Source of the DNA: Polytrichum commune
Taxonomy: Eukaryota; Streptophyta; Polytrichopsida; Polytrichales; Polytrichaceae
DNA: 64,000 bases
Assembly: GCA_950295325.1 (NCBI GenBank)
Contig: OX485807.1
Coordinates: 24,399,666-24,463,665, forward strand
Direction of reading: 5' to 3'
This document shows positions 2,961 to 47,479 of the stretch, one piece after another. How positions within the stretch are numbered: the first letter of the stretch is position 1; the number at the start of each line of letters is the position of its first letter. The notes beneath the pieces were generated by a model, which made no database searches, was not told the DNA's origin, and saw only the letters and a list, made by a program, of their open reading frames with translations. The translations under genes and the position numbers were made by a program.

Positions 2961-3275
2961 GACTGCAGCTGGCTGCTGGGTGGCTAACAGCACCGAGACC
3001 GTGGACTTAGACTGCAGCTAGCTGCTGGGTGGCTAGACAGCACCGAGACCGTGGGCTAGACTGCAGCTGGGCTGCTGGGTGGCTAAACAACACCGAGACC
3101 GTGGACTTAGACTGCAGCTGGCTGCTGGGTGGCTAAACAACACCGAGACCGTGGGCTAGACTGCAGTTGGGCTGCTGGGCGGCTAAACAACATCGAGACC
3201 GTGGCTAGACTGTAGCTGGGCTGATGGGTGGCTAAACAGCACCGAGACCGTGGGCTAGATTGCAGCCGCGAGGCT
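2961..3275. repeat. 49-bp tandem repeat inside A2
   Basis: Seven units start at 2961, 3010, 3059, 3110, 3159, 3208 and about 3257. The core is GACTGCAGCTGG-CTGCTGGGTGGCTA followed by CACCGAGACCGTGG. The sequence is unrelated to the tandem repeats of the sister LTRs except for CAGC/GCTG richness. Confidence 0.9.
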
Positions 3276-19730: not shown

Positions 19731-20290
19731 TGTGAGCCCAATATGGTGCCCACGAGTGTTCTTAGACCAAAGATACTACTAGGACTTAGACTTTGACGTT
19801 TGCTTTGTATTCAAAAACATAAAAAGAGTGAAGCTTGGTTTTTGGAGTGACAATTGAGTTTAAAGCTAGATAGGAATTAAGGTTACTGGTAATTCTTTGA
19901 GGTTGAATTAAGAGTTGGATAGCTAGTGGGGAAGATTAGAGTTAAGGGTGGGGTGATGATTAGTTGGTTAGTTGAGTAGTGTAGTTTAAATTAGTCCTTG
20001 GCTATTATGTAAGGCTCGTACTTGTTGGATTGGACCGGGTTAATCAAGTTTGGACCAGAGTATTGTCCATTGTGGGCACGGTGGTTAGTCGTTTTAGGGA
20101 AGAGGTCACTGTGACCTAATGAAATTCGGATCCAGGGAAACCGAAGTTCGGTGGCTGGTCCAGAAGTTCTTCTTCTTCAGGTTTTCGGGAATGCGAGAGG
20201 AGAAACTTGGTGTGTGTGTATGCTGGAGGGGAGGCATAAGGTGATGGAAGAAGAAGAGTATTTCGGCAGGTTAGGGGTTGACAGGGTTGG

Positions 20291-20368
20291 CTATTGTGTC
20301 GTGACGGAGGGTAATCCCGGCATAATGTCGTGCCGTCACGACACGTATCCGTCACGACATTATGCCGG
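20291..20368. repeat. left subterminal palindromes of the hAT element
   Basis: A perfect 16-bp inverted repeat (CCGGCATAATGTCGTG at 20317-20332, its complement at 20353-20368) surrounds a 20-base loop. TGTCGTGACGG and its inverse CCGTCACGACA occur several times. Such short motifs near hAT ends are usual transposase-binding sites, which is inferred here. Confidence 0.8.
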
Positions 20369-20516
20369 ATGCTGTCTTTATCCTGACGGACTTGAATTTT
20401 TCCGATTTTTTTGTGTAATTACATTAACCCAATTCGGACACGTAGGATTTACAATGTCCACGTGTGATGACATGTCAGCAAAGTAAAGGTAAAGTGGGGA
20501 AAAATTTACTAGAGCC

Positions 20517-20702
20517 CGTCCGCCTCCCCGTCTGCCCCCGTTCCCAACCCACGTTCCCCCATCCGCTCCCGTTCCCCGCCCCGTCCCCGCCCCGTCCGCT
20601 CCCCCCCCCCTCCGTCCGCTTCCCCGTCCGCCCCCCCGTCCGTCCGTCCGTCCGCTCTCCCCCCCCCCCCCCCCCTCCCCCGTCCGCTCCCCCGTCCGAT
20701 TC
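20517..20702. repeat. C-rich CCGTCCGC array 1 (upstream of transposase)
   Basis: Pyrimidine-rich degenerate repeats of the type CCGTCCGCTCCC / CCCGTTCCC on the plus strand, with homopolymeric C runs (20652-20668). It ends just before a TATA box. The open frames it creates on both strands are low-complexity artefacts. Confidence 0.85.
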
Positions 20703-20707
20703 GAATA

Positions 20708-20715
20708 CTATAAAT
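20708..20715 (+). promoter_or_regulatory. TATA box of the hAT transposase gene
   Basis: CTATAAAT directly after C-rich array 1 and about 235 bases before the ATG at 20945. A TTTGTATTTGCAG 3' splice-site-like sequence at about 20919-20931 suggests a 5'-UTR intron between the promoter and the start codon. Confidence 0.5.
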
Positions 20716-20944
20716 TGAGGGTTCAAGTGCCATTTTTGCCTCCACTGACATAGTGTGTCTCAAGTCTTTTGATTCTCCTTTGAGGAGTGAGGATTGAATG
20801 CGTGAGACCCGAATGCAGAGGATACTTTGTCCAATCTAGTGACTGTGAATTAGGGTTGCCCTTGTGGCACTCTTGAATAGGACCTAGTATGCGATCAAAG
20901 TTACTTGCTCTAACCTGTTTGTATTTGCAGGTTTTGTTGAAGTC

Positions 20945-23900
20945 ATGCCACGCCGAAATGATGCATGGGATCATTGGTACGAGGATAAGGGGATGGTTCC
21001 CGGTAAATCACAAAGGCAGGTTAAATGTAGGTTTTGCCCGTTCGTCATATCTTACCGAGGAAATAGAATGTTGGCCCACCTTGGTTATAGACCTCCTGTA
21101 GGGGGTGCTTGTGATGTTTCCACATGTAGGATGGTTCCCCCGCATATTAGGGTCTTGTTTGAACATTGCGGAGGCATTGTGCCCTTACATGTAGGCATTG
21201 TAAATGAGGACTCTCCAGTGCCAGATATTGTACCTCTGGAGCCTATTATAGCGGACTCCATAATTAGTGAAACAGAGCCTTTGCTTATGTCCCAATCCAC
21301 TCAACATTCTGATGTTGTGATATATGGCACACCTCCTCGTGAACTACGTCAACTCAACATAACGGAGGGATTCAATGTGTCAACAAAACAACTCCTTGAT
21401 AAAGCATGGGCAACGGCTTTTTATGAAGCTAACATTCCTTTCAACATTGTGAGACATCCTGCATTTGTTCATGCTGTGCGTGAAACTGCCCGTCATCGAA
21501 TGCCAGCCTACACACCACCATCGTACAATGCCATCCGTACGAAGTTGTTAACTAATAAAAAAGTTGACCTAGATAGGCAAGTGAAGGAGAAGCTGGGGAA
21601 TTCCGTTGACAAATATGGCGTTACACTATGTTGCGATGGATGGGACAACGTGCAAAACTGACCTCTCCTAAACGTTCTTCAATGTGGCACAAAGGGAGAC
21701 GTTTTCTTGGGTACCATTGACACCACGGGAAATCACAAGGATCATGTCTACGTTGTTGCTCAAATTCAACCATTTGTGGAAAAGGTTGGTCGACATAATG
21801 TGGTCCAAGTTTGCACCGACAATGCCCCAGTTATGGCCTCCGCTGCTCGCGACTTGATTCGAGCAAATCCCGATCTATATTTTCAAGGATGTGCTGCACA
21901 TTGCCTAGATCTCCTCTTAGAAGATTGGGGGAAGGAGGAATGGGTGAAAAAGTTGGTAAAAAAAGCGCGCCATATTTGTGTATTTGTTAAAAACCATCAT
22001 GCTTCTCAAGCTATATTCCGGAGGTTGTCACCAAATCTCTCACTCCGCCTACCTGTAGAGACCCGTTTTGCAACGAACTTCATCATGATAGAACGTCTTC
22101 TCCAAGTACGCAATGCTTTGGAAAGAATGGTGGTTGACGAGGATTGGCCTACTCTAATGCGTGATATGAGGAGGACATCTCGCACCTCTTACATGAAGGG
22201 CTCTGCTGTGCGAAGCTTTATACGTTCTGATGGATTCTGGAACACGTGCAAAAATTTCTTGTATATGGTGATCCCGGTTGTTAAAGCTCTTCGTGTATTT
22301 GATGGCAAGGCGCCTGCAATGGGAATGGCTTGGAGGGTCATGCATGATTTACAAACCCATATTCGTGGATTCAGTAAACCTCCATTTCGCTTAAGCCCTG
22401 AGCTTGCTGCAAATGCTATGCTAACGTTTCAAAATAGATGGAGGTTGATGTTGAATGATCTACATTGGGCTGGAGCGATGTTAAATCTGCTTCTACGTGG
22501 TTGGGCCCCACTCCATAAGGATGACAATTCGAGGACAATCCTAAATCGAGTTCTTCGCAGGCTTGCTCAAGATGAGGACACTTATGTCCAAATCCTCCAC
22601 CAGTACCAAGATTTCCTTGAAAATCGAGGGCCTTTTGCTGATTCTACTGACCCAAGCGTGCATGCCGCACCTCTCCATGAATGGTGGGATGCAATGGGAG
22701 GTGGAGCTAAAGCCCTCCAAACAATAGCAAGACGTATCCTTGCACAAGTATGTTCCGCATCCGCATGTGAACGCAATTGGAGCATGTACTCATATGTTCA
22801 CAACAAGAATCGCAATCGCTTGAAGCATAGTCGTGCCGAGGACCTCGTCTACATATATACCAATAGTAGGCTCATTTGCCATCGGAGGGGCCCAAGACCT
22901 GCGCAATGGTACAAATTGAATGAGGTCCATTCTGACGATGACCTTGACGAAGAAGATGACAACGAAGATGACGTGGATCCAAATGATAGGGCCGGAAATG
23001 ATGATGACAACAATGTTGATGACATCGACTTTGATTTGGATGACCTCGATTCCGAGAATCATGATTTAGAAGATGAGGATGGCCATGGTGGTGATGGAAA
23101 CCTTGGGGTGTTTGATTTTGATGAACCGGATGTCCCCCAACATAACGACGGAATGCATGACGATCATGAGGGGTCTATTGGAGGACCGCCTTTTGAAACT
23201 CTCCACACTGGACAAGGGTTTCGCCCTGACCATAATGTTGCTATGGGGGCAAGTGAGAATGTAGGAATTGAAGTAGATTCCTTGCAACCTCGGAGCGATT
23301 CTCTTTCTTTTGGTGAAGGTGACAATGTACTACCCGCAAATGAGCCAACGCACGTTCAACATGATCCACTTCCAGCCCGAGTACATTCTGAATCCATGGA
23401 CGCCTCCCTCATATCCAACCATCGTATAGAAGATCAAACGCCCAATGTTCTTGAAATACCTACAACTCGATTCCGTGTTCTTCAAAGAACTGCATCCACC
23501 TCTACGGTGCAAGTGCATGCACAAGGTCAACGTCGTCATCTCACTCGAAGTATTGCCAATACTTCTAGATTGGGTGTTTCACGTGCAACTGCGGTGGGTG
23601 CTACTTTGGTTGCTATACACAATGTTTTAAGAAATGTTACTACAGAGGTGTCACGTCGTCAATCTGTTCGTCGACATGTTGTTGAGAACATACCAATTGC
23701 AATTCCATCCGCATCAGTTTTACTTCCACACAGTCAATCCAATGGAACATGTGGACTTGGAGTTGGAGGCGGAAGTATAACGGGGGATGTTTTTATAGAT
23801 GGAAGTAGAGATGAAGTGCACTCAAGTCGTGGTACGGGTGGAGGGCGTCTGAGAACTACGAGAGGTGTCAAACGTACTAGGAAGAGGTATCAGGGAAGAT

Positions 23901-24142
23901 CGCTTCCGTTTACTGCTGAAGACTACAATGAAAATGAGGGTAGACCACATCTAGATGAAAATGGCATACAAGATGCAGAGGGCTCCCGGCCGACCAAGAA
24001 GATAATTTTCTCACAACGTGACCGAGAGTTGCATCTTCGGAGCGCGACTCCCCAAACGGATGATGATTGCAACACAGACGAGTCTGAAGAGGACCCAAGA
24101 TGTGTCGAAGCAAATGATCCCACAGTATGGATTCGAACGTAA
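20945..24142 (+). pseudogene. hAT transposase with BED finger, one in-frame stop
   Basis: A single frame of 1,065 codons is interrupted only by TGA at codon 239 (21659-21661). The N-terminus is a BED-type zinc finger (Trp8, Cys28, Cys31, His45, Cys56). A DUF659/RNase-H-like core follows, with CCDGWDN (Asp231, just before the stop), CTDNA (Asp292) and CAAHCLD (codons 316-322). The hAT dimerisation motif CERNWS is at about codons 608-613, followed by NRNRL and NSRL. A 370-residue tail is unusual: acidic from about codon 664 and basic later. The stop is a CGA-to-TGA type change in CG context. Everything downstream is intact, so the loss is recent, or the stop is read through. A poly(A) signal AATAAA lies near 24299. 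Confidence 0.88.
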
Positions 24143-24890
24143 TGATTTTGCACAAATGCGGTATTTTGGTGCTCCCACGTACTCCCATAATTTATTACTT
24201 ACGTCAAAATTGATACAAGTTACAACCTTAGGGCCTTCGGTTTACATTTAGACCACAAAGCGAACGTTACCTTCAAAGTTGTATCATTTTATTATAGTAA
24301 TAAAATTATTTATTGCATGTCTTTCAAAATTTTAAAAATACAATATGATTGTCAACTTGGCATTGCAATTACTCTCCAACAACATGTTATGCCTTTATTA
24401 ATTATTATTTTGTATTATTCTTACTGTGAATGGAGTTTTATGTTTATTTATTGTGTTTCTTAAAGAAAATGATTTTATAAATATTGCAATCCCCTATTGC
24501 TCGATTGTACATGCTTCGTTAGTGACATCCTCTTTTTGAGGACCTTTCTATCCGTTTTATATAATTATATCTTTATGTGGTATTCAATATTGCTATGTAG
24601 TCAATAGTACTTTTGGTTAGACTATCATATGAATTACTAATATTCAAGTAAGTTTTTAAAAGTTTTGAATAACATTAAAACATGTGGCATCCATATGCTA
24701 TCTTTTACACGATCTTATAAATGACAACTTGTCGGTAAATCCTTTTTATATTACATATTATTTGAACATGAAATATGTTCATTATGTCCAAAGTCTTCCT
24801 CCGTTCCTATACAATTTTCTAAATATGGTACAAAAATGCCTAATCCGAATCTGAATCGAGGTCTATTCTAGCTGAAGTAGATCCTCATCG
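24143..24890. other. AT-rich 3' flank between convergent hAT genes
   Basis: Contains the probable AATAAA of the transposase gene near 24299. No coding region is seen. The minus-strand gene ends close to the right border, so the two genes are transcribed toward each other. Confidence 0.5.
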
Positions 24891-25231
24891 TGCTCGTGAT
24901 GATTCCCCCGCTTCCATGCTTCGCGTTGTTCTACGGGTGAGGTATGGACGACTACCAGGACACAATGGAACGGCATTACGTGGTCTAGGCCCACCATTTA
25001 GCCATCTCAATACCGCATCATCCGCAACTCTATGCAAGAGTGCATCAATTGCAGCCTGTTCTTGTGGTACCCCACCTCTAACTGCAATTCAAATCTCGGA
25101 TCCCGTTCCGTAGGCATGTCATCTGCATCTTCTTCCAAATTATGCTCCGATACTGATTCGAGACCTGCGCATTGTACCAAGGAGGATGAATGCCTCTCTT
25201 TAATTGTCTGCTGGTTGTATCCCAATGTCAT
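24890..25231 (-). pseudogene. possible C-terminal continuation of the coiled-coil gene
   Basis: Two overlapping minus-strand frames look coding. The first (25231-25007) has an acidic EEDADDMPTERDP stretch. The second (about 25075-24893) runs EQAAIDALLHRVADDAVLRWL and ends in an arginine-rich tail. They would need at least two frame changes to join to the upstream gene, by mutation or by splicing. No family is recognised. Confidence 0.35.
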
Positions 25232-26700
25232 TTAAGAGTTTGGTACAAAAATATTTTCAAATCATGATCGGGGGGCTTGTTGGGATACCTGCGGAATGGA
25301 TATTCAAGAACTTGGGTCACATCCCAATGGTGATCTGGGTCGGTCATTTGACGCCCATCGATGCTCCCGTTTGGCAATGTCCACTCATTAGTTATATCCC
25401 ACTTACTAGGGTACATATACTCATCTTTTGGCCATGACGTGAGCATCACGTTCCGCATTCTCTGATTGCGGTTCCATTCTTTCTAGATGCTCTCAAACTC
25501 AGCTTCAAATTGACGAGCCTTGACCATAGCAAGCAATGTGCTTGTCCTCATATTCTTGCGCTCCACAATCGCATCCAATAGGAATTTCTTCAACCTTGCA
25601 TTCTGCTCCTCCAGTCCGCCAATCTTGGCTTCGTGATCAACAACCACTTCATTGACCACTTGAAGTTGTTGTTGCATGTCCACCACCTCCTTTTGCAAAG
25701 CCTCTATCTTTCCTCGCATTACTTCATTCCTCATACATACTTCCAGAGCTTGTGACTTTGCAAGCTTGGCTTCCTGTACAGCTGTGTCCCTCTCTGCTTT
25801 CAAAGACTAAAGGTTAATTGGTGTACTATTTGAACTGCCAGCCTCCCCCATCGTAAGTGTTGCAACTTTATTTTCCAACTCGAAAACCCTTCCTTTATAT
25901 TCACGAATTTCCGCGGCATGTTGCTTACGCAATTCTTCCATTGTGTTCTCCATCGGGTCCGCTCCAAGTTCACCAAGGTTTACCTCGTCTAGGACCTCGT
26001 TAAGCACATCGTTGATCAGGTTGTTGACCTCGACATTTGCCTCCATGCCCTCATCCATATGCTCAAACGCCTTCTCGATGGCCATCTCCATGTCATTGGC
26101 TGGTCGTTTACGATTACGTGGCTTTTTTGGTTCCCGACCCTCTGGAATTGGGGCCCCAGGCTCATCCACTAGTCTAGGATTCCTTCTAAACCACTCCGGA
26201 ACTGGAGTGTATGGAATATCTGGTACTGTGTATTTAGTGAATGCAATTCCAATACCCCCAAATTTCTGACCATGCAGAGCAGCCAAACTTGACCAATCCA
26301 CCCTAACTCGCAACACGTGCTCCGCATACATCATACACGCCACCGACTTTGGAATTGCACTTTTGGGCCATCTATCCAAATTGGAGATACTTCTAAGTAT
26401 CGTTAGGAATCTCCATTTTGCATCCACGTCATCAAACTGCATATAACTTGCACTAATGGCCTTGCAATGTCGCTCGTGACAAGGTCTTGGCCACAACTGA
26501 TCAAAGTGAGGGAAACCCACGTACTGCATTGCAGTCTTCGCTGACCACGGTTGTGGTACATTCTCCCAACCTGCCCTAGCTTTTCGGGTGTTGTCATCAT
26601 AAACATCCCACTCCAACCCAGCGGCCTTGCGTACATGTGATCTGTGACAACCTGATCCTCCACTTGCCATGTCTGGAAATCCTTCACTTGCCGTATCCAC
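25228..26700 (-). pseudogene. hAT cargo gene 1: coiled-coil protein of unknown family, two amber stops
   Basis: One minus-strand frame of 491 codons starts at ATG 26700 and is interrupted only by TAG at 25807-25809 and 25483-25485. Both look like CAG (Gln) changed to TAG. The first 160 residues are globular and tryptophan-rich (GWENVPQPW, VGFPHFDQLWPRP). A basic KKPRNRKR cluster near residue 200 could be a nuclear signal. Residues about 205-290 and the segment between the two stops are predicted heptad-rich coiled coil. The segment after the second stop is again Trp/Pro-rich. I do not recognise the family. It lies convergent to the transposase inside the same hAT element, with a C-rich array upstream. 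A role as an accessory or DNA-binding partner of the transposase is only a guess. Confidence 0.6.
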
Positions 26701-27064
26701 CCAAATTGTAGTTTCTAATTCTAATCTAGAACTCTAATTTTTAAATTACTAATTGCACTTCATAATAGTGGTACAAAACATCCAAGCATACACTTCAAAA
26801 TAGTGTTGCTGTGGAATTAGTTCAAAAATGTCGTTAAAAATTAAACTACAAAAATTCAGCACACCCTTCGAGCACCCCGCTACTAGCGCTCACGCAGAGG
26901 CCAGTTGACTAGGCGCGTCACAAGGAATATGCCAAAAAGGCAATATGCCACGTCACAAGGGAACGGGTCCACGTGGATCACACCCACAAACAGGTTAGTA
27001 AAAAAAGTATAAAAGGATCCCAGAAAATGGATCCTTAACTCCTCCGAGCACCTCGCTACCCCGC
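26701..27064. other. upstream region of hAT cargo gene 1
   Basis: Presumed 5' UTR and promoter of the minus-strand gene. A TATAAAAG at 27008-27015 is on the plus strand and points away from that gene. Confidence 0.35.
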
Positions 27065-27440
27065 ACTCTGTAGTAGAGGAGGGTCGTCTGGTCGTCCGCA
27101 CCCGTTCCCTCCCGTCCGCGCCCGGTCCCCCCCCAGTCCGCACCTGTTCCCGACCCCGTCCGCACCCGTTCCCGCCCCCGTCCGCACCCGTTCCCTTATG
27201 TCCGCCGCCACGTTTCCTACGTCCTCACCCGTTCCCTTACGTCCGCCCCCTCGTTCCCTACGTCCGCCCCATGTTCCACTCCATCCGCTCCCGCGTTCCC
27301 CCGTCCGCTCCCCTCCGTACGCTCCCATGTTCCCCTCCGTCCGCCCTATTTCCCTTACGTCCGCTCCAATATTCCCATAAGTCCGCTCCATGTTCCCCTA
27401 CGTCCGCTTTAGAGTTCCCATCCGTCCGCTCCCGCGTTCC
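27065..27440. repeat. C-rich CCGTCCGC array 2
   Basis: Degenerate repeats of GTCCGC-CCC-GTTCCC, about 375 bp, lying upstream (on the minus strand) of cargo gene 1. Same family as arrays 1, 3 and 4. Confidence 0.88.
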
Positions 27441-27450
27441 CCTTGAATCT

Positions 27451-27598
27451 GCACTTTTTATTTTTTTTTGGAAGTTTGGACATAGTCTCGGTTTTTTGGC
27501 TCTCAAAACTTCATATGAAGTCCAAAAAATGAGTTCTTGGTATCCATGGATAGGTAATGAAGTCCTCTACATGAATATGCAATAATATTTCTACTGCA
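27451..27598 (+). repeat. internal 150-165-bp repeat, copy 1
   Basis: Starts with a T-run and GGAAGTTTGGACATAG and contains TTGGTATCCATGGATAGG and ATGAATATGCAATA. It is more than 90% like the copies at 31753 and 36249, and all are in direct orientation. Confidence 0.9.
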
Positions 27599-28001
27599 GA
27601 TTCCCGCGTCCCCCCATCTAACTTAGGCCCTTTGCAAATAATATATGTGACATTAAATATCATAACCAGTGTACTTATCCACACAAAACTAATGAAGGAT
27701 CCCTCAAGCAACAAAGTAACCAATGTAGTATGATGACCAACAAATTATCACCCCTATGGAGATTTTTTATCTATACAACAATTTGTCGTAAGGACAAATA
27801 CACTAAAATACACATATTTTCTATTCTATATATAATATTAAAATTTCAAAATTTGTAAGACAACGATGAACATGCATAGAAGTATGCAATAATAAGCGGT
27901 TGCAATATCATAGAAGTGGTACAACATATTGTACAAGTAATAACTTTATTATTGTGACGACGGTACAAACCATGCACGATTTAATATTCCACTTCATTCC
28001 G
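27599..28001. other. AT-rich spacer inside the hAT element
   Basis: Probable 3' region of the next minus-strand gene. No gene or motif is recognised. Confidence 0.4.
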
Positions 28002-28556
28002 TCATGGCAACCTCGTAGATGCTTGTGGCTTCCGTCGAGGGTCCATTTTTGGAAGAGGATTCCGTCGAAGTAAATCAACATAGCTAATCGTTCGGTCTTT
28101 CATCCGTTCCTTCAATGGTAGCCGATGAGGCGATAATCCTCTCCTCTTCCTACGAAAAGACAAAGTCCTTGAAGATTCTTTCACTACCTTGACATCTTCA
28201 ATGTCGATTGAATTGTCATCCACATGCCCGGGCTTCACCCAAATATCCACGCTCAAATCAACCACATCATTTGGATCTCCTCCCACGCTTTTTGTTAGGT
28301 CCTTCTCCACTGCATTGATCTCGAATTTCGCCGCATATCGTCGTTGGTCCTCCTCCACCCTCAACTTCCATGCTTGTGTAGATTGTGAGAAGGGGGTCAT
28401 AACATAGTCATCACGAAATCGATCTCTACCACTTCTCTCATCTCTTTCACGCTCGGATGATGGATTGAATGGAATATCGGGTTCACCTAAATTTACTATC
28501 TCCTCATCACATCCTAGACCCTCAAACATGTCTCTCTTCTTTCCCATCCTATCCAT
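28002..28556 (-). CDS. hAT cargo gene 2: intact 184-residue charged protein
   Basis: An uninterrupted minus-strand frame starting at ATG 28556, the only cargo gene without a break. The protein is hydrophilic. There is an acidic N-terminal part (EEIVNLGEPDIPFNP), an Arg/Asp/Glu-rich stretch at about residues 34-50, a Val/Asp-rich middle (NDVVDLSVDIWVKPG), and a very basic C-terminal third (SFRRKRRGLSPHR, KERMKDR, DPRRKP) that could bind nucleic acid or act as a nuclear signal. No membrane segment or known domain is recognised. Because it is intact next to decayed neighbours it may be younger, under selection, or simply short enough to have escaped damage. Confidence 0.6.
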   Translation of the reverse strand: MDRMGKKRDMFEGLGCDEEIVNLGEPDIPFNPSSERERDERSGRDRFRDDYVMTPFSQSTQAWKLRVEEDQRRYAAKFEINAVEKDLTKSVGGDPNDVVDLSVDIWVKPGHVDDNSIDIEDVKVVKESSRTLSFRRKRRGLSPHRLPLKERMKDRTISYVDLLRRNPLPKMDPRRKPQASTRLP

Positions 28557-28597
28557 GATACTCTATTCTCGTTATATGTATGAGTCTAAATGCTCTA

Positions 28598-28605
28598 CTT
28601 ATATA
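28598..28605 (-). promoter_or_regulatory. TATA box of cargo gene 2
   Basis: TATATAAG on the minus strand, 42-49 bases before the ATG, which leaves a very short leader. It supports the chosen start codon. Confidence 0.55.
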
Positions 28606-28756
28606 CTGAGCTCAAAGGACTTTATGAAATTTAAAATATTTGATGTAATCCAAGATGTAGAGGATCCAATTCTCGTTGGTAAGATAAAGACAACACAATA
28701 GGAATAAAAAGAAAGTTGGTAAAGTCAAAAAGTTAGTTGCATTTTTTGAAAAAATC

Positions 28757-29351
28757 CCCCGACACCCGCATTGGAGACCTCTTTGATACCTCTTTGAAGC
28801 TTCTATATTTGATGGGTTTTCTTTTCATTCAACAAATCACATGTTTATGCTTCAACCTTAGTGGTTCGTATGGTTTCACAACCCACACGCATTCGAATAT
28901 CATTTTAATTCAACAAAGTACATATTTGTGCTTCAACCTTTCTGGTTCAAATGGTTTCACAACGCATTTCAGGCATCCGAATGCCATTTTCATTCAACAA
29001 ATCACATATTTGTACTTCAACCTTAGTGGTTCGTATGGTTTCACAACCCACATGCATTCGAATGTCATTTTAATTCAACAAATTACATATTTGTGCTTCA
29101 ACCTTTCTTGTTCATATGGTTTCACAACGCATTTCAGGCATCCGAATGTCATTTTCATTCAACAAATCATATATTTGTGCTTCAATCTTAGTGGTTCGTA
29201 TGGTTTCACAACCCACACGCATTCGAATGTCATTTTAATTCAACATAGTACATATTTGTGCTTCAACCTTTCTGGTTCATATGGTTTCACAACGCATATC
29301 AGGCATCCGAATGCCATCTTCATTCAACAATTCACATATTTGAGCTTCAAC
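28757..29351. repeat. dimeric 78-bp satellite in the hAT element
   Basis: Alternating A and B units of about 78 bp form a dimer of about 157 bp. Both contain CATTCAACAAATCACATATTTG-like and CTTCAACCTT-GTGGTTC-TATGGTTTCACAAC words; B units add TTCAGGCATCC. Some 3.5 dimers are visible. Unit lengths are multiples of three, so a 214-codon plus-strand frame (28737-29381) passes through. Its repeat, FNLSGSYGFTTH, is probably a by-product. The array resumes at 30083-30165 beyond an insertion. Confidence 0.85.
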
Positions 29352-30082
29352 CTTAGTGGCTCGGGGGGTGCACTGTACTAAACATGTACGAGTATACGTG
29401 AATGCACAGGAGGGGTATTGATTTGGACCTTGCCGTATTACGTATACATATGGCATACATGTTATAATTTATAGTTACGTACATATATGGAAGGCCTTTA
29501 AAAATTATACAATAATTGTACTTGTATGGTATTGTTACTATACTACATATCATAAGTTTTCATATTGGATGCGGAGGAAGTTTTGTAATCGTTGGGTGGA
29601 GTATAGGGATCCAATTGACTTGATGGACCGTCCATCAAACGTGGACATTGGTTTATATTGGTATCAAAAAGGGGCTAACAACAAGTGGACATGTGATCTT
29701 ACTGATCATTTGATGGTAGACTTAGAGACAATAATTGCATTGGCTATAATGACATATATTGGTGAATCAAATGTTTATGAGTTACATCCGGGAGATGAAA
29801 AAGTTTTCAACGACTTTGCTGATGAAAGCTAGGATATTTTGTTATACATATTATAGGGGTTGATTATTGTTCAAAATTATATTTGTATACTTATGTTGAT
29901 GACTATATATGAATGGATGTTTTTTGTGTATACATATTGTCACTTGTATATTTATTATTGCAATTGTATGTGTATTACTTCATTTCACAAAAAATAACTT
30001 GTATATAGGGGGTTTTTAGAATATGCAGTGAACGCACGTGATTCTAGGTTTTAATGAAAGGTGCACCCCCCGAGCTTAGTGG
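29352..30082 (+). mobile_element. 715-bp insertion with 14-bp TIRs and 8-bp TSD
   Basis: The element (29360-30074) begins CTCGGGGGGTGCAC and ends with its exact inverse, and is flanked by CTTAGTGG at 29352-29359 and 30075-30082. It interrupts the 78-bp satellite. An 8-bp duplication fits hAT-type insertion, though the termini differ from those of the large hAT element. Diverged relatives stand just downstream (right end 30410-30483, left part from 30631). Confidence 0.88.
29569..29832 (+). CDS. small frame inside the 715-bp element
   Basis: 87 codons, starting MRRKFCNRWVEYRDP and containing LMVDLETIIALAIMTYIG, probably a short helix. No known domain is recognised and no transposase motif is present. 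A diverged, broken copy of the same stretch occurs at about 30880-30980, so the sequence belongs to the element family. It may be a remnant of the parent element or a captured fragment. Confidence 0.35.
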   Translation: MRRKFCNRWVEYRDPIDLMDRPSNVDIGLYWYQKGANNKWTCDLTDHLMVDLETIIALAIMTYIGESNVYELHPGDEKVFNDFADES

Positions 30083-30169
30083 TTCGTATGGTTTCACAAC
30101 CCACACGCATCCCCTTGCCCTTTCATTCAACAATTCACATATTTGTGCTTCAACCTTCGTGGTTCATAA

Positions 30170-30200
30170 ACCCTAAATCCTAAACCCTAAACCCTACGTC
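30170..30200. repeat. short telomere-like CCCTAAA stretch
   Basis: Three to four CCTAAA/CCCTAAA units, the plant telomere type, directly after the satellite remnant. Confidence 0.7.
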
Positions 30201-30409
30201 ATTCCAAATTGCTATCACATACGTGCTATTATTTTGTTCTCACACTCATGTAGAAGTGTTTCCATACATGGTTTGAAGGTTTAGGTTTCCAGCTTTCCAA
30301 CGAACCCACCCGCTTTTTTTTACGATGCCTACAGCGAAAGTTAAACATTCGCAAATCGCGAGGACTACTTCAAGTTGGCACAATCTCTACTTAGACATAT
30401 AACTTATGG

Positions 30410-31000
30410 TATACATTGGGGTTTTTAGAAGGGGTCATGAACGCACGTGATTCTCAAACATAATGTAGAGTGCATCCCCCGAGTTCCCATAGGCTTTATA
30501 AAGATATCTTACCAACACCTTACACAAATTATAACATTCTAGAAAAGCACATTAATCTGGTCCACATTGATATTAAACTAGGGAATTGGTGTGGGCTTAA
30601 ATTTAATGTGGCCCACATTAGTGATCATTTAGGAGGGGTGCACTATACTAATTCCGTATGAATATATGTGAGTGCACAAAAGAGGTATTGATTTGAACTT
30701 TGTTGTATTATGTATACATATTCTTTACAAAATTATAAGTTGTAGTTATGTAAATATATAGAATAATTTAAAAAAATATACAGCATCTCTACTAACTTGT
30801 ATGGTAGTGTCACTAGATTTTATAGAATAAGGTTTATTTTATTTTAGTATTGGCTTAAACTGGTACATAAAAAGAACCAACCACAAGTGAACATACGATC
30901 TTACATATCATTTGATGGTAGACTTCAAAACAATAATTGCATTAGCTTTTATGACATGTATTACAAATCAGATTATGGGAGGATTGAATGGAAACATATG
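30410..31000 (+). mobile_element. diverged relatives of the 715-bp element
   Basis: 30410-30483 matches the right end (GAACGCACGTGATTCT ... CCCCCGAG). From 30631 the sequence matches the left half of the complete copy (GGGGTGCAC, then GAGGTATTGATTTG), up to about 30970. Neither has both ends or a duplication. Confidence 0.65.
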
Positions 31001-31229
31001 CTTAGGGACTTGGAAAAAGGGTCGGACGTGGCCTACCATGACATTCTTAACAAATTTGATTTTATTTGGGGGGTCAAAGGTCTTATTGTGACCCGTAGCA
31101 ACTTAGTCCCTACTTGGAAGGATAGGCCTCAAATGAGCATTATTTATAGATTTCCACTTAGGCTACGCTGTTTCGGCTGGGTTGGTTGTATTTTCAATTT
31201 GTGCCAAAAAAAAGAATAAGACATGTATT

Positions 31230-31743
31230 GCAAATCTAAGGGCCGGTTCACAATATGGCCAAACTTTGAGAGGTTCAACATTTGGACCAATGAAAATGTT
31301 GAAATGCCCAAAGTCCGTCCTCTCGGCCTTCACACTAGAGGCCGAAGTCCAAAGGACGTCGTCTCCAAAAGAGCCTAGGTGGCAACACTTTTAGGAAGTT
31401 ATGGCGCCAAGAGTTCGGCCTCTCGAGCAAAGTTTGGGTATAGCAAAATGCTCAACCCAAACTTCCGTCGAGAGGCCGAACTTTTTTTTCATCAAAATAA
31501 TCAATCATTGACAAGATCTTGGCCGTTAGATTGGAGGGGTTATTTTGAGCAAGGAATAAAGTGGCATGCTCCTTTGAGTTTGGACTTTGCGCTTGGCCTT
31601 TGGAGGCTTCACACTATGCCCAACTAAGGCTACCCTTACTATATTTTATTGGTTATTTTCAGTTCATTTCTTTGGACTCTCAACAAAGTTGGGCCACTCA
31701 ATCGCACGGCCTCTCAACTTGGACGGCCATAGTGTGAACTCGG
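31230..31743. mobile_element. putative MITE with GGCC-GGTTCACA termini
   Basis: The left GGCCGGTTCACAATATGGCC and the right GGCCATAGTGTGAACTCGGTC are imperfect inverted repeats. Inside, GGCCTCTCGGCC-like words recur in both orientations. No clean duplication was identified, so the exact ends are uncertain. Confidence 0.5.
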
Positions 31744-31752
31744 TCATTTACA

Positions 31753-31914
31753 CTTTTTTTTTTAAAGTTTAGACATAGTATCCGTTTTTTGGCTCTAAAA
31801 AATTCATATGAAGTCCAAAAAATGAGTTCTTGGTATCCATGGATAGGTAATGAAGTCCTCTACATGAATATGCAATAATATTTCTACTGCCAGAAAATAT
31901 ATGGCCGCAATTCC
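31753..31914 (+). repeat. internal 165-bp repeat, copy 2
   Basis: Direct repeat of 27451-27598 and 36249-36413. Together with copy 3 it extends further, through CCAGAAAATATATGGCCGCAATT, and is then followed by a C-rich array. Confidence 0.9.
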
Positions 31915-32345
31915 ACGTTGTTCCCCTGCCCCCTTCAACCCCGTTCCCTCCCGTCCGCCTCACGTTCCCCACCCATCCGCCCCACGTTCCCCTCCGTGCG
32001 TTCACGTTCCCTCTCGTCCGCTCACCGTTCCCTTCCGTCCGCCCGCGTTCCCTCTCGTCTGCTCCCCGTTCCCTTCCGTCCGCCCTCGTTCCCTACCGCG
32101 TTCTCCTCCCGTCCGCCCCACGTTCCCTACCGTCCGCCCCATGTTCCCTCCCGTTCCCTCCCGTCCGCGCTCCGTTCCCTTCCGTCCGCGCTCCGTTCCC
32201 TTCCGTCCGCCCGCGTTCCCTCCCGAGTTCCCCTACGTCCGCCCACTCGTTCCCTCAGTCCGCCCCCTCGTTCCCTCCGTCCGCCCACTCGTTCCCTCAG
32301 TCCGCCCCCTCGTTCCCTCCGTCCGCCCCCGCGTTCCCACGTTCC
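31915..32345. repeat. C-rich CCGTCCGC array 3 (upstream of kinase)
   Basis: About 430 bp of degenerate CGTTCCCTCCCGTCCGCC repeats ending 70 bases before a TATA box. At 32220-32330 a longer unit (CCACTCGTTCCCTCAGTCCG) is duplicated. Confidence 0.9.
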
Positions 32346-32414
32346 CCACATGTCCTTTTTGTGCCCCATGTCAAATCCGACCGGGATCCCATAATGATTG
32401 TGCACCCCTTTGCC

Positions 32415-32422
32415 TATATAAA
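32415..32422 (+). promoter_or_regulatory. TATA box of the kinase gene
   Basis: TATATAAA between the C-rich array and the ATG at 32628, predicting a start of transcription around 32447. Confidence 0.65.
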
Positions 32423-34205
32423 GCCGTGGGGCTTTAGTTCCCCTCATTTTCCTCTCCTCCCACCACAAAGGGACCCGAGACCTTATTGCCGTCCCAAGGA
32501 CAGCGGCACCGCGCGGGTCTCAGGGGGTTTGGGAGGGCAGGGCAAATTGTGGGGGAACCCTCGCAATTTTTTTTCCAGATTCACTTGCTGATTTCTACAT
32601 TCACTCACTCACGCGGTTTTTTTCACGATGGAGGGGGAGGACATTGCTCCTTACCAACACGAGGATACGAGGGTGCACCGTGCTTGGCTCCAAAGCACTC
32701 CATCTGCACATACTGGAGAGGGTACGGGAAGCGATGCCGAAAGTGGAAGTACTGCAGCACGTCCCCCACGTCCAGATCCTTTTCGGTTTGGCGAAGAGTT
32801 CTTTGTTGTTGGTCATTCAGGAGGCAACCAAACACGTGGAAGCCGTGGAACACGTGGGAGTCGGGGAAACAGTGGCCATAGAGGGAGAACAGGAAGGGGA
32901 CCAAGCTCAGGCAGTTCCACAGATATAAATGCAGCCACTCGTGGTGAGTCCGTGCCACCACGATCTCCGACACGGCAGACATCAAGACCGGAGAGCCCTG
33001 CACGTGATGTACCTCAGGGTTCGGAGCATGGTGAAAGATGGGGACAGAAACGCCCAGCAGTTTCGGAAGGGACGGAGGAGGGGTCCGCGGTATCAGGTTC
33101 GCAATCGAGGAAAAAGAAAAATAGAGGCAAACGCGACCCGCGGATCGATGAGGCTCGAAACCATTGTAGGGTCGTGCTGTTGGAGTGGTTTAGAAATAAC
33201 AGCATGGTTTATTTGGAAAAAAATACCTCAATGATGGTACAAAGGGTTTAGAGTTGGTGAGGAACGGTTTGATGCTTATTCTCACGGAAGCCACGGCTAG
33301 AGCGGAGTTTGAAGAAGCTAGGGGCATGAGCGATTGGGACACTTGGATTGAACAACAAGCCAGGGAAGCAATCTACAATCCAACAATGGCATATGATGCT
33401 CTGCATCCTGGCGAGGGAAATAGTAGTGGCAGGAAGTCCGAGCTGTACATGAAGCTAGAGAATTGGAAAAGAGGCGTAATAGCAGCAAAAGGAACATCCG
33501 CCCGCAACCTTCCCATTTTTATTGACAGGCAGATGGCAGACAACATTGCCACTCAGGGCCGGCAGGGTGTCATATGGTTGCCTAGGAATGCAGAGATCAA
33601 AGCCTTGGATAAGGAATTCTTCCAAGGGACCTTCGGAGTGGTGAGGAGAGTCACAATTCATGGAGCATCATTCATCCCTAGCTGGATAGAGTGGGCTGGG
33701 AAGACCATGAAGGCCACGAATAGTTTGGAGAACCGAAAGGAGCGTTCAGTTGAAGCATTGGCGTGTCCAGTAGATCATCCTGGGGTAATCAAGCTACAAT
33801 ACCTCAATATGAAAACATACGAATCCTATTCGATGTGGTGGAATAGAGGCTCCTTGAAGAACATGAGGATCTATGACTTCAGCGTTCCGGAAACCCACGA
33901 GCATACAATCCTTCAAATGCCTAGGCCAGACTTTGAAGCACGGAAACGGTTGGTAGTATATCGAAGGCATCGAGCTTATTTGGCATGGGCTCTAATGTGC
34001 ATTGTGGATGTAGTGCACAAGCATGACGTGTTGCACAATGACCTTAATCCCAACAATGTCATGCTGCATTTCCCACAAGATCGTGATAACACGGTTTACA
34101 TTGGTGTGTGTGATTGGGGCATGGCATCCTGGGGAGATGAAGACGCACCCTCCAACTATGGAAGAGATTCAGTGGATGAGATGAACAAGCACAAAGCAAA
34201 ATACA

Positions 34206-35188
34206 ACTGTTGTCGCGCACCTCTCCATGAGGAATGCCCGAAACACCATGGGCACAAGGGGGACCCCGGAGTGACACCCGGGACTTGTGGCGCCGTTGGT
34301 GAGAGGGCCCAAGTGATCCTAGTGTGGGTGAGGGCCCCGGGCGTTGGGAACGCCTCCCACCCACGAAGACTAGGAGGCACAAGGGTAAGGCCATGAGTTA
34401 TGCGTAGCTCATGGCGTGGTGATTCTAGAAAGCTCAAGAACACCTCAATCGGAGGTGTGAGCTAGGAGTTATGGCCATTTGAGTGGGGCGCTGTCCCGGG
34501 ACAGCGCCCTGGTACAGCAGTGCATGGGAGTGATTCCAGGGACTGCCAAGGTTCAAACAGGCATAACTTCCTCAATACTTGCCCGAATGGGGCAAGTGAG
34601 GAGTCCATCGGCATCTACGTGAAGCGTAGATGAAGATGGAGTGGTTGGTTGTTATGATCAGACATCATACAAGGAAGTTATGATGGTCTGAAGCTGCTGG
34701 GGGGTTCTAGGCCCAGCAGCTAAAGGAAAATGTCCACTTGGCCCCAACTCTTGGTAGAGAGACAAGAGGTTGGTTGACGGTGGGGTAGGGGCCCCGCGTG
34801 AAGTCCTAGAGGCTTATATGGGTGAGGTGGTGTGGCCTCACCCACCCGAGGCCGAACGGCACGGCCTCCATGGGCATTGGCCCAATGTGAGGCCATAGTT
34901 GCCTAGTATGCTTCGGGTTGTTGTAGTGTTGCTCTGGCAACGCGATGATCAACATGGGATTGGACTTCCATGGAGGGAAGTCCGCATCTAGGAATGGGTT
35001 ACCGATTAAGGGGTGAGTCCCGATAGTAAAGTAGGAGGGTTGGTTCCCTCTTATGAACTAAAAGGTCCGGGGTAGGAGGAGCTAACCATTAGCATGGCGG
35101 AATGCGAATGGTTAGCGCTCGTAACCTTTGCTAGAAATGAAAATTGGCAAGATTGTCAAGGGGGGCTAGCAAGGGTTGCGACAACTGT
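34206..35188 (+). mobile_element. family-B solo LTR (B1) in the kinase gene
   Basis: A 973-bp sequence, TGTCGCGCACC...GGGTTGCGACA (34211-35183), flanked by ACTGT at 34206-34210 and 35184-35188. It is nearly identical to 37322-38300 in opposite orientation. It has no internal region, so it is a solo LTR. Frames crossing it (such as the Gly/Pro-rich stretch around 34260-34320) are LTR artefacts, not kinase sequence. Confidence 0.95.
34486..34509. repeat. 24-bp perfect palindrome in B1
   Basis: GGGCGCTGTCCC followed by its exact complement. The same palindrome is kept in B2 at about 37998-38021. Confidence 0.9.
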
Positions 35189-35521
35189 GCTAGTCCAGAA
35201 TTATTCCATGTACGAGGACAACGTGGAACATCCACCTCTCCGGTGAGGATGGCTCGGAAACATAGGCACACATTTCTCTCGGAGTCCTTCTCAGTGGGTG
35301 CTTTGGCAAGGAAGATTTATGCCAAGGATTCGACTTCCCCCTTGTTTCAGCTAAATAGTGATCCAAATGGCTTGAAGATGCGGTTTGAGTTAGCATTGGA
35401 TTCATTGACGAAGACCAATCCAGCGGAAAGGTCAACCATCACACACGTAGTGAACATGTTGAAGTCCCCTCCATACAACATGGTTAACCCGACAATGTGC
35501 TTCCGTGACACTGCAAAATAG

Positions 35522-36248
35522 ATTTTTTTTGTTTTTTTTGCAGCAATTTTGAATCATACCAATTTTGTAACCGTTGGAGATGTAAATAAAGCCATCATTT
35601 TTTCATACAAAACTTGTATATTGTATGAGGTTTATGGATCTTAGTGCAATGTTCATACTTCATGAGGCTTTTGCTCCATAATCGAGAAGAAGTCTATAGG
35701 AGGCTAACCAAGGTTCTCGCCTCTCGTGAGGCCACATCGTTCTTTCACATCGTTGTTATCACATCCATGTGCTAAGTTCAAGTTAACTATAGTTTTTTGT
35801 GATATGTCTTGCCAAAATGCAGTTACCTATATTTATTCTAATTTTGGTATGCCACAAAATGTAGTCAACTATAGTTATATCTAGTTAACTAAAGTTGAGC
35901 ACAATATTGCAATAGTTATATCAGTTGTACACGTGATCCTAAACATCTCTAAATGTTAACTTTCTTCTACTCCCCACATATTGCACACTATAAATGTTAA
36001 ACGTGTTAACTGTTAACAAAATGGTACTCCCTTCTTTGTAAATCTGACTCTATAAACGTTAACGGATGAAATACAACCATAATATGGATGATAAAAACTA
36101 CACATCCAGTTACATTGATTCATATTCACTCGTGATTTGTAAACTTGATATTGAATAAAGTTTTGATTGGGTGTGCAATTTTATGAATGGTATTCTCTCA
36201 CAAGGACTCTTCACAATTGCTTATATTTATATTTATATAATTCAGAAA
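35522..36248. other. kinase 3' flank, AT-rich
   Basis: Contains the probable AATAAA of the kinase gene near 35586. TAGTTAACTA-like words recur at 35780-35900. No gene is seen. Confidence 0.5.
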
Positions 36249-36413
36249 CATTTTTTTTTGGAAGTTTGGACATAATCTCGGTTTTTTGGCTCTCAAAAAT
36301 TCATATGAAGTTCAAAAAATGAACTTCTTGGTATCCATGGATAGGTAATGAAGTCCTCTACATGAATATGCAATATTATTTCTACTGCCAGAAAATATAT
36401 GGCCGCAATTGCA
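36249..36413 (+). repeat. internal 165-bp repeat, copy 3
   Basis: Direct copy of 31753-31914, and like it followed immediately by a C-rich array. Confidence 0.9.
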
Positions 36414-36417
36414 CGCT

Positions 36418-36615
36418 ATTCCCCTCCCCCCCGCTCCCCTCCGCGTTCCCCCGTCCGCTCCAGCGTTCCCCCCCATTCCCAACCCCCGTCCGCTCCAACC
36501 CCCTCCGTCCGCCCCACGCCCCACCTCCGTCCGCTCCACCCCCTCCCCCGTCCGCTCCACACCCCCCCCCCCCCCCGTCCGTCCGCTCCACCCCCCTCCC
36601 CCGTCCGCCCCACAC
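36418..36615. repeat. C-rich CCGTCCGC array 4 (right end of hAT)
   Basis: CCCGTCCGCTCCACCCC-type repeats with long C runs, about 275 bases from the right terminus. It mirrors array 1, which lies about 235 bases from the left terminus. Confidence 0.88.
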
Positions 36616-36808
36616 CCTCCTTAGTCATATTTTTCTACTTTGATTTTAACAGAATGATAAACACAATGGCAAAATGGTTTACTTGGCAAGGGAAATATGC
36701 ACACCCACGTCGGCGTTTTCTGCCACATAGGACGCCACCTTGGCAAGAAGGTAAGTATTTTACCCACCCTAGTCCATTCACCCTATGTTGACCCTATATG
36801 GACCCTAT

Positions 36809-36890
36809 TGTGTCGTGACGGAGGGGTCCGTCACGACACGACACGACATGACGGCACGACACCGTCATGACGTCGCGATAGACAACCCTG
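36809..36890. repeat. right subterminal palindromes and TIR of the hAT element
   Basis: GTGTCGTGACGGA and its inverse TCCGTCACGACAC form a tight palindrome (36809-36838). More CACGACA words follow before the terminus AGACAACCCTG. These are the same motifs as at the left end. Confidence 0.82.
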
Positions 36891-37316
36891 GGGGTTGAGG
36901 AGCGATGGCCACTCCACTAAATTAGACTACAGCTTGGAAGGATGTCCACTGGGTCTCACAAGCTACAGAGTGCGGTGAAGTTGGGCAGCAGCTCACGAAT
37001 AATCCACGTGAGCAATGCAGAAGTGGTAGCTGGGAAATTGAGCGCAAAAGAAGACAATGAGCTGAAATCAGAAAGGAGTAAGGGGCAATGATGGAATGCC
37101 CTACCTCTGCCGCAACACATCATTTTTGAGCGTTGGTTCAACTGCGGAATTCCTACTTCATTCTGAATTAATCTCTTGGCTACTGCCGCGGCATTCGCTC
37201 CTAGAGGCAAGCTGAGATGCATGCGCCTTGGACTGAATCTTGGGAAAGCTCATCACCTCAACTGGAAGGGACTGGTGGATAGCAGGAAAGGGGATCAGAA
37301 CCCATTTCACCACAGG

Positions 37317-38305
37317 CTGAGTGTCGCAACCCTTGCTAGGTCCCTTAACAATCTTGCCAATTTTCGTTTCTAGCAAAGGTTACGAGCGCTAACCCTTCGC
37401 ATTCCGCCATGCTAATGGATAGCTCCTCTTACCCCGGACCAATAGTTCATAAGAGGGAACCAACCCTCCTACTTTGCTTTCGGGACTCAACCCTTAATCG
37501 GTAACCCATTTCCCCAATGTGGACTTCCATCCATGGAAGTCCAATCCTATGTTGATCATTGCATTGCCGGAGCAACACTACAACAACCCGAAGCATACTA
37601 GGCAACTATGGCCTCACAATAGGCCAAAGCCCATGGAGGCCTTGCCGTTCGGCCTCGGGTGGGTGAGGCCACACCACCTCACCCACATAAGCCTCTAGGA
37701 CTTCACGCGGGGCCCCTACCCCACCGTCAACCAACCTCTTGTCTCTCTACCAAGAGTTGGGGCCAAGTGGACATTTTCCTTTAGCTGCTGGGCCTAGAAC
37801 CCCCCAGCAGCTTCAGACCATCATAACTTCCTTGTATGATGTCTGATCATAACAAACTACCACTCCATCCTCATCTACGCTTCACGTAGATGCTGATGGA
37901 CTCCTCACTTGCCCCATTTGAGCAAGTCTTGAGGAAGTTATGCCTGTTTGAACCTTGGCAGTCCCGGGAATCACTCCTAGGCACTGCTGTACCAGGGCGC
38001 TGTCCCGGGACAGCGCCCCACTCAAATGGCCATAACTCCTAGCTCACACCTCCAATAGAGGTGTTCTTGAGCTTTCTAGAATCACCACGCCATGACTCAT
38101 GAGCTACGCATAACTCATGGCCTTACCCTTGTGCCTCCTAGTCTCCGTGGGTGGGAGGCGTTCCCAACGCCCGGGGCCCTCACCCACACTAGGATCACTT
38201 GGGCCCTCTCACCAACGGCGCCACAAGTCCCGGGTGTCACTCCGGGGTCCCCCTTGTGCCCATGGTGTTTCGGGCACTCCTCATGGAGAGGTGCGCGACA
38301 CTGAG
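37317..38305 (-). mobile_element. family-B solo LTR (B2), inverse orientation
   Basis: The LTR is 37322-38300 (979 bp), flanked by CTGAG at 37317-37321 and 38301-38305. It is nearly identical to B1 but inverted and lies in the right part of A3, outside the hAT element. The separate duplications show two independent insertions rather than one long inverted repeat. Confidence 0.95.
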
Positions 38306-43346: not shown

Positions 43347-43790
43347 GAATTAGTTGATTGAGACCAGCTACTAGGACTGGGGCAGCAACTGATTAGTGGC
43401 CGAGACTAGCTACGGGGGACTGAGGCAGCAGTTGATTAGTGGCCGAGACCAGCTGATTAGCGACTGGGGCAGTAGCTGATTAGTGGCCGAGACCAGCTAA
43501 TTAACAACTAAGGCAGCAGCTGATTAGTGGCCGAGACCAGCTACTAGGACTGGGGCAGCAGCTGATTAGCGACTGGGGCGGCGGCTGATTAATGGTCGAG
43601 ACCAGCTACTAGGACTGAGGCAACAATTGATTAGCGACTGGGCAGCAACTGATTAGTGGCTGAGACCAGCTGATTAGCGACTGGGGAGGCAACTGATTAG
43701 TGGTCGAGACCAACTACTAGGACTGGAGCAACAACTGATTAGCGACTGGGGCAGTAGCTGATTAGTGGCCGAGACCAAGCTTTACTAAGG
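43347..43790. repeat. irregular 40-70-bp tandem repeats inside A5
   Basis: Around nine units built from GCCGAGACCAGCTACTAGGA, CTGGGGCAGCAGCTGATTAG and GCGACTGGGG in varying combinations. Confidence 0.88.
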
Positions 43791-46298: not shown

Positions 46299-46861
46299 TA
46301 TGAGCCCAAAATGAGTGCTCATATTTGTTTTATGTTTAGAATTTATTTAGAATTGCAATTGGAGTGTTATTAAAACAATCAAAAGTATGAAAAGAGTGAG
46401 GCTTGGTGTGGTTTATGTTTTAGGCCTTAAGCCTATTTTGTGTGGTTAATTAGAAGCTTAGTGATATTAGGGAGTGTTTTGGTTAAGTGAGTAGTGTTTG
46501 ATGAAGCAAGAGGAGGGGTCTTGGATTTAAATGTTTGAATTAGAACATGTCCTTGTTGGTTTAGGGGGTGAAGATTTAGTGGATAGGATAAGGTCCTACT
46601 AAGTAGGAGAAGGTTAAGGGGTTGTGGTCTTGGGTGCCCTCTCCTCCTCTTCCTCTCCTCTCATCATTTCTTCTTCCTCTTCTCTCTCTCTCTTCTCAAG
46701 GAGTTGAGCTCTTAGAGCTTGGAAGAAGCGGAAATTAGGGGAAGACTTATTAGGATTAGTGGAATTAGGTAGGTGCATTAGGGGAAGACTTATTAGGATT
46801 AGTGGAATTAGGAAGATGCATTAGGGGAAGACTTATTAGACTTAGCGGAATTAGGTAGGGG

Positions 46862-47247
46862 ACTGAATTGTTGCTAGTAAGGCTAACTGGCTGGACTGAA
46901 TTGTTGGTGGTGAGGCTAACCTCGGTTGGACTGAATTGTTGCTGGTAAGGCTAACCGATTGGACTGAACTACTGTTGGAGTAAGGCTAACCAGCTGGACT
47001 GAACTACTGCTGGAGTAAGGCTAACCGGCTGGACTAAATTGTTGCTGGTGAGGCTAACCTCGGTTGGACTGAACTACTGCTGGAGTAAGGCTAACCAGCT
47101 GGACTGAATTGTTGCTGGTGAGGCTAACCTCGGCTGGACCGAATTGTTGTGGATGAGGCTAACCTCGACTGGACTGAACTACTGCTGGAGTAAGGCCAAC
47201 CTCGGCTGGACTGAATTGTTGTTGGTTGAGGCTAACATCGGAGGGAC
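46862..47247. repeat. about 37-bp tandem repeat inside A6
   Basis: Ten or so units of CTGGACTGAACTACTGCTGG and AGTAAGGCTAACC, with a variant GAATTGTTGCTGGTGAGG. Confidence 0.9.
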
Positions 47248-47479
47248 TGGTCGAAGGTTACGGGACCGGTTATGAGTTATCCCCGGTTAGGGGAAGAGGC
47301 CATGGATAATAAGGCCACTTATTATGGTGGGTTTAGTTAAGTAGGGAGGAGGGGAAGAAATTAGACTAGGAGTGCAACTCATTAGTAAATTAGCGGGCGA
47401 CATAGGGGGATGAGCTTTTAGTAGGGAGTTGAGAGTTGGTGTGTAGATTAGGGTAGGAAGAAGGGAATAAATGGAGAAT

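Follow-up and report, generated by a model that had tools for sequence, protein, structure and literature searches.

A four-gene hAT transposon family inserting as whole units of about 16 kb in the moss Polytrichum commune

The 64,000-nucleotide stretch of Polytrichum commune DNA analyzed in this study (the window; positions 24,399,666 to 24,463,665 of contig OX485807.1, assembly GCA_950295325.1) contains a hAT transposon of 16,609 bp at window positions 20282-36890, with its target site duplication (TSD) lying just outside these limits in the sequence as read. Between its terminal inverted repeats (TIRs), the element carries a transposase gene and three accessory genes, which encode a coiled-coil protein, a protein of 184 amino acids (aa) and a protein kinase-like protein. 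The ends and genes of the element are as follows, in window positions:

20274..20281, no strand: left copy of the TSD, GGGGTTGA, identical to 36891-36898
20282..20289, + strand: left TIR, CAGGGTTG; 17 of 20 other copies tried have this terminus where it is expected
20291..20376, + strand: left subterminal repeats with GTCGTGACGG and CCGTCACGAC motifs, from repeat comparison of the window
20945..24142, + strand: hAT transposase gene with a long acidic C-terminal tail; DUF659 and Dimer_Tnp_hAT matches; one in-frame stop at 21659-21661
24830..26670 (low end approximate), - strand: coiled-coil protein gene; frame open over 25810-26670, then stops in the window copy
28002..28556, - strand: 184-residue gene, intact; open frame with relatives in the protein database and in the same genome
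32628..35521, + strand: protein kinase-like gene; Pkinase match at 3.8e-6; frame break at 33200-33251 and an inserted long terminal repeat (LTR) in the window copy
36805..36882, + strand: right subterminal repeats, from repeat comparison of the window
36883..36890, - strand: right TIR, CAGGGTTG (read as CAACCCTG on the + strand); exact in 9 of 10 other copies, with one mismatch in the tenth, and exact at C6:36714258
36891..36898, no strand: right copy of the TSD, GGGGTTGA, identical to the left copy

At both window ends, CAGGGTTG fits the plant hAT TIR pattern [T/C]AGNGNNG given in the available part of a 2018 survey (PMC6027215). The TIRs are imperfect past 8 bp, matching at 13 of the first 16 positions, and the CAGGGTTG 8-mer by itself occurs in the window at chance frequency (3 occurrences versus 2.39 expected); therefore, weight is placed on the identity of the flanking 8 bp (chance probability approximately 2e-5 at 40% G+C), on a 21-bp subterminal repeat, CTATTGTGTCGTGACGGAGGG, common to both ends (20291-20311 and 36805-36825), and above all on the other copies of the element. 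The window transposase matches DUF659 (1.3e-23) and Dimer_Tnp_hAT (PF05699; 2.2e-10, over the curated cut-off), and by the features tested (TSD, TIR pattern and dimerisation domain) the element is a hAT. A preliminary description of this DNA had proposed matching termini, an exact 8-bp duplication and a hAT transposase gene inside, with coiled-coil, 184-residue and kinase genes between the ends, all of which is borne out by reading of the sequence and by the domain matches. Its account of the gene set holds for the 184-residue gene, which is indeed intact, but needs correcting for the other three genes, which are broken in the window copy (the coiled-coil frame, for example, is stopped at 25807 and beyond). 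The window element is thus a decayed member of its family.

Further copies were sought in the assembly of the same genome (407.8 Mb in 64 contigs), where all match counts are lower bounds and only the best candidates were scored (transposase, 69 of 256; coiled-coil gene, 136 of 155; 184-aa gene, 150 of 498; kinase, 120 of 205). Two of the 70 transposase rows represent one split copy, leaving 69 copies including that of the window; as copies were counted through the transposase, forms that share the ends and have no transposase, such as short deletion forms, fall outside these counts. Among these best 69 of 256 candidates, the transposase is 94-97% identical to that of the window in 60 other copies and 87-91% identical in eight. 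All three accessory genes lie within 22 kb of the transposase in 49 of the 69 scored copies and the coiled-coil gene does so in 65, while at least one of the three is found near every one of the 69. When transposases were placed at random (1,000 runs), all four genes came together in a mean of 0.6 cases and a maximum of 5. The preliminary description had considered that other copies might hold only a transposase between these termini; not one of the scored copies lacks all three accessory genes. Pack-type gene-capturing hATs are recognized by fragments of identifiable host genes that mostly differ from copy to copy; the recurrence of the same three genes in 49 of the 69 copies speaks against the second of these features. 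The expectation that other copies would repeat both the genes and their order is thus upheld for the genes but fails for a single order, as the 49 complete sets fall into three, and only three, arrangements (T, transposase; C, coiled-coil; G, 184-aa gene; K, kinase):

T+ C- G- K-: type B, 29 of 49
T+ C- G- K+: type A, that of the window, 16 of 49
K+ G- T+ C-: 4 of 49, with transposases 87-89% identical to that of the window

Types A and B differ by inversion of the kinase segment, with breakpoints (from one type B copy, C2:2227840-2243579) near window positions 31729-31754 and 36281-36421, at 139-bp modules. Three direct copies of this module, approximately 95% identical to one another, are present in the window:

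27460..27597, + strand: 137-139-bp module, copy 1
31754..31890, + strand: 137-139-bp module, copy 2, at one edge of the invertible kinase segment
36250..36388, + strand: 137-139-bp module, copy 3, at the opposite edge of that segment

The left end was fetched for 20 transposase copies, of which 17 contain CAGGGTTG at the expected place; the subterminal sequence after it is the same in these copies, and the flanks before it differ. In one of the remaining three (L079), the left end lies outside the stretch fetched. Right ends were sought in 17 copies and captured in 10, all of which have exact 8-bp TSDs, each different from the others, and total lengths of 15,609-17,103 bp; the single right-TIR mismatch belongs to C7:26611537-26627187. 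Among the seven right ends not captured, two copies (L095 and L102) are truncated or rearranged, and the other five stretches have no recognizable end and were perhaps misplaced. In a further, fully read copy of 16,020 bp (C6:36698239-36714258), both TIRs are present and there is no TSD, so that the 8-bp TSD characteristic of hATs is present in the window and in 10 of the 11 further copies in which both ends were reached. Copies with both ends and 8-bp duplications, which the preliminary description had suggested looking for, are therefore found. Because these bounded copies have their own TSDs and the gene set recurs, it is the whole four-gene unit of approximately 16 kb that transposes, and the alternative of a one-off capture is refuted by the complete gene sets together with the ten bounded copies.

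The transposase gene has a 1,084-aa stop-to-stop frame and no stop in the match in 26 of the 70 rows, and a stop-free match in 50 of the 70. The transposase core has 168 relatives in the protein database, of which the 120 listed are 29-93% identical, with clusters as large as 408 members. The nearest relative with a named plant (63% identity) is from Ceratodon purpureus (P0182), and its tag, M758_UG198100, suggests the U chromosome of that moss. The long acidic tail, including parts of its end, is shared by distant full-length transposases (15 aligned), and the alignment contains invariant D and E positions, candidates for the catalytic DDE residues. Three relatives (L001, L002 and L003) are on contigs filed as cyanobacterium, Halorubrum and Lachnospiraceae, probably as a result of genome-bin contamination.

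The kinase gene has at least 123 matches in the genome. For an uninterrupted 638-aa copy, the matches to Pkinase (3e-6) and APH (9.2e-5) fall short of the curated cut-offs, and the kinase piece of the window passes the curated APH cut-off. Candidate glycine-rich-loop, lysine, catalytic-loop and DFG-like motifs are GTFGVV, AGKTMK, HNDLNPNN and DWG in two copies (L030 and L025) and the first three with DWGMAS in another (L039); among 13 kinase frames with a length of 600 aa or more, 12 have HNDLNPNN and DWG. Thirty kinase loci were fetched, including that of the window, of which nine encode exactly 638 aa and 11 encode 630-720 aa. Between types A and B, the median nonsynonymous (dN) and synonymous (dS) divergences of the kinase are 0.028 and 0.047 (11 genes; dN/dS about 0.6), and within type B they are 0.0037 and 0.0094 (eight genes; dN/dS about 0.4). 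These ratios come from intact frames, a choice that favors constraint, and on them the kinase appears moderately constrained. The low dS among the eight type B kinases (a median of 0.009) and the 60 transposase cores that are 94-97% identical to that of the window indicate recent activity.

Neither the coiled-coil nor the 184-residue protein matches a Pfam or NCBIfam family above cut-off. The coiled-coil gene has at least 139 matches in the genome, with open frames of up to 788 aa, and its protein has 56 database relatives (37-89% identity; clusters of up to 19 members). The 184-residue gene has at least 151 matches, and its protein has 113 database relatives (41-89% identity), including one 51%-identical cluster of 128 members; four columns are invariant among 23 aligned sequences. 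A frame of 184 or 186 aa is present in 13 of the 30 loci fetched for this gene. Median dN and dS, again from intact frames, are 0.083 and 0.097 between types A and B (13 genes; dN/dS near 0.85), 0.038 and 0.052 within type A (six genes, including that of the window), and 0.014 and 0.034 within type B (seven genes), values on which the gene looks weakly constrained between the two types. A more distant 184-aa lineage (about 30 rows, about 49-54% identity) is found mostly on contig C4 of the same genome. TATA boxes are present as sequence motifs only.

The window element also contains C-rich minisatellites and two later insertions:

20515..20698, + strand: C-rich minisatellite of CCGTCCGCTCCC-like units, upstream of the transposase gene
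27093..27443, + strand: C-rich minisatellite between the coiled-coil and 184-aa genes
31939..32346, + strand: C-rich minisatellite upstream of the kinase gene
36421..36620, + strand: C-rich minisatellite near the right end
29360..30074, no strand: nested 715-bp element with a perfect 14-bp TIR, CTCGGGGGGTGCAC, and an 8-bp TSD, CTTAGTGG; later insertion
34211..35183, no strand: solo-LTR-like insertion of 973 bp (TGTCGC...GCGACA) with a 5-bp TSD, ACTGT, inside the kinase gene

It is possible that the C-rich minisatellites are binding arrays or promoters. Of 29 other 184-gene loci, 26 are without the nested 715-bp element (six matches per locus compared), and the 973-bp LTR is absent at the corresponding place in all 29 other kinase loci fetched. 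Diverged sequence related to the 715-bp element is present at about 30418-30962, and the nested insertion is adjoined by a 165-bp tandem repeat array (28822-29363) that is matched in other copies. A second solo-LTR-like copy (37322-38300; 979 bp; 5-bp duplication CTGAG), approximately 95% like the first, lies just outside the element, and in another copy (L017; C1:16609473-16613468) a relative of the window LTR sits beside the kinase gene at a different place. Unrelated minisatellites occur in the flanks of the element (1683-2046, 2951-3266, 43360-43777, 46860-47249 and 56339-56777).

Taken together, the window contains a decayed copy of a high-copy four-gene hAT family that inserts as whole units of about 16 kb and whose accessory genes probably serve its propagation. 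The accessory genes keep open frames in some of the young copies and have outlasted rearrangements of the element, and the copy numbers of their families are like those of transposons; from this, we infer that the accessory proteins act as regulators or helpers of the element and are not products of passenger host genes. A hAT transposase with DUF659 and a dimerisation domain cuts and pastes its element via the TIRs and subterminal repeats. By analogy with that family knowledge, the transposase of the window family would bind the TIRs and the subterminal GTCGTGACGG repeats and move the element by cut and paste; the coiled-coil and 184-residue proteins may form a complex with it at the subterminal repeats and the C-rich arrays; and the kinase may phosphorylate either the long acidic tail of the transposase or a host silencing factor, an action that would set the timing or dose of transposition.

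There are several alternative explanations for this gene set. An accessory protein, most likely the coiled-coil protein, might act on the repeats of the element to remove repressive marks, as VANC does for VANDAL elements, with the kinase in a secondary role. The C-rich arrays adjoin the genes as candidate binding sites, and VANC is described as recognizing short motifs in non-coding regions of related transposable elements (available part of PMC13317346), but the likeness of the accessory proteins to VANC is one of analogy, and we consider this route conceivable though doubtful.

It is also possible, although unlikely, that three host genes were captured once by an ancestral hAT and have since been carried without use, as a fixed Pack-hAT. 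Several observations speak for such passengers and against a helper function: comparison of type A with type B gives the 184-aa gene a dN/dS near 0.85, 20 of the 69 scored copies are without at least one accessory gene, and the roles of the accessory genes are predicted ones. The picture of a conserved functional unit is further qualified by a gene content that is stable while gene order is variable (three arrangements), and by the decay of the window copy itself. On the other hand, open frames persist in part of the copies across three rearranged architectures, the kinase has a dN/dS of 0.4-0.6, and the relatives of the 184-aa and coiled-coil proteins (37-89% identity, with largest clusters of 128 and 19 members) are more in keeping with long-standing genes of the element than with a single recent capture.

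Three copies on contig C1 (C1:21867927-21967104), whose four genes are all offset by approximately 51.5 and 33.7 kb, form a segmental duplication containing the element, one member of which (C1:21867927-21883535) was counted once among the ten bounded copies. Such a triplet is what would be seen if the copies were one genomic block copied repeatedly and not independent insertions; however, each of the seven large contigs has copies, and flanks and TSDs differ between copies where these were looked at. Segmental duplication, a very improbable reading, is rejected as the general cause. An artefact in which nested or adjacent insertions joined a transposase and unrelated repeats between fortuitous ends might be suspected from the two later insertions in the window copy (29360-30074 and 34211-35183) and the threefold recurrence of the 139-bp module, but is refuted, and has next to no probability left, given ten loci with different flanks, the same ends, exact and differing TSDs and lengths of 15.6-17.1 kb, and a second type A copy that, those two insertions aside, is colinear with the window element over its whole length.

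Autonomous plant hATs are as a rule 2.5-5 kb in length and contain one gene. The window family shares the TIR pattern, the 8-bp TSDs and the DUF659 and Dimer_Tnp_hAT domains with plant hATs of the Ac/Tam3-type superfamily, and differs from them in its length of about 16 kb and its four genes. The 2018 survey, in its available part, records no hAT in the moss Physcomitrella (PMC6027215), and no multi-gene hAT of plants or mosses was found in searches of the open-licence literature that covered titles and abstract openings, which is no proof of novelty. The VANDAL Mutator-like elements of Arabidopsis resemble the window family as plant DNA transposons with a helpful non-transposase gene of their own, VANC (available part of PMC13317346; see also PMC5735166 and PMC10398659), although the helper role in the window family is a predicted one while an effect of VANC is reported; in addition, the transposase is Mutator-like in VANDAL and matches hAT models here, and the available part of PMC13317346 mentions no kinase. 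Among fungal elements, as described in the available part of PMC12730594, TET+ hAT7 transposons are likewise hATs with a non-transposase gene (twenty families), but are distinguished from the window family by 7-bp duplications, a TET/JBP dioxygenase and their occurrence in Puccinia rust fungi. IS3EU elements likewise have a recurrent kinase gene beside the transposase, but belong to another superfamily with 6-bp duplications, TIRs ending in TAYGG and an alpha-kinase (PMC12730594, available part), compared to Pkinase/APH matches, 8-bp TSDs and CAGGGTTG ends here. Fungal ToxhAT and Starships are also large cargo-bearing DNA transposons, with ToxhAT likely of Tc1/mariner type with TA duplications according to the available part of PMC12506042. 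The closest kinds are VANDAL with VANC and, among the multi-gene transposons of fungi, IS3EU (alpha-kinase) and hAT7 (TET/JBP), and the window family lacks a defining feature of each. Starships use a tyrosine recombinase.

The preliminary description had raised the prospect of a new class of cargo-carrying transposon. The stable multi-gene unit stands, but fungi and VANDAL elements already provide examples of multi-gene DNA transposons, so the family is better described as a new variant within the hAT superfamily, one with several genes, than as a new class. The stronger proposal, of a self-regulating four-gene hAT forming a class of its own, in which a putative kinase phosphorylates the tail of the transposase or the host machinery for silencing, together with two proteins of no described family, kept through rearrangements during moss evolution, is speculative and may well claim too much. 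Textbook hATs are one-gene elements, and a recently active, high-copy plant family with three more genes, one of them kinase-like, would mean that self-regulation by several genes can arise in hATs, which, if true, would parallel that of VANDAL elements and some fungal transposons. The family adds two protein families without assigned function and is a case in which signalling encoded by a DNA transposon could be tested directly. It also illustrates how cut and paste can move a unit of 16 kb that keeps its mobility with one of its modules inverted.

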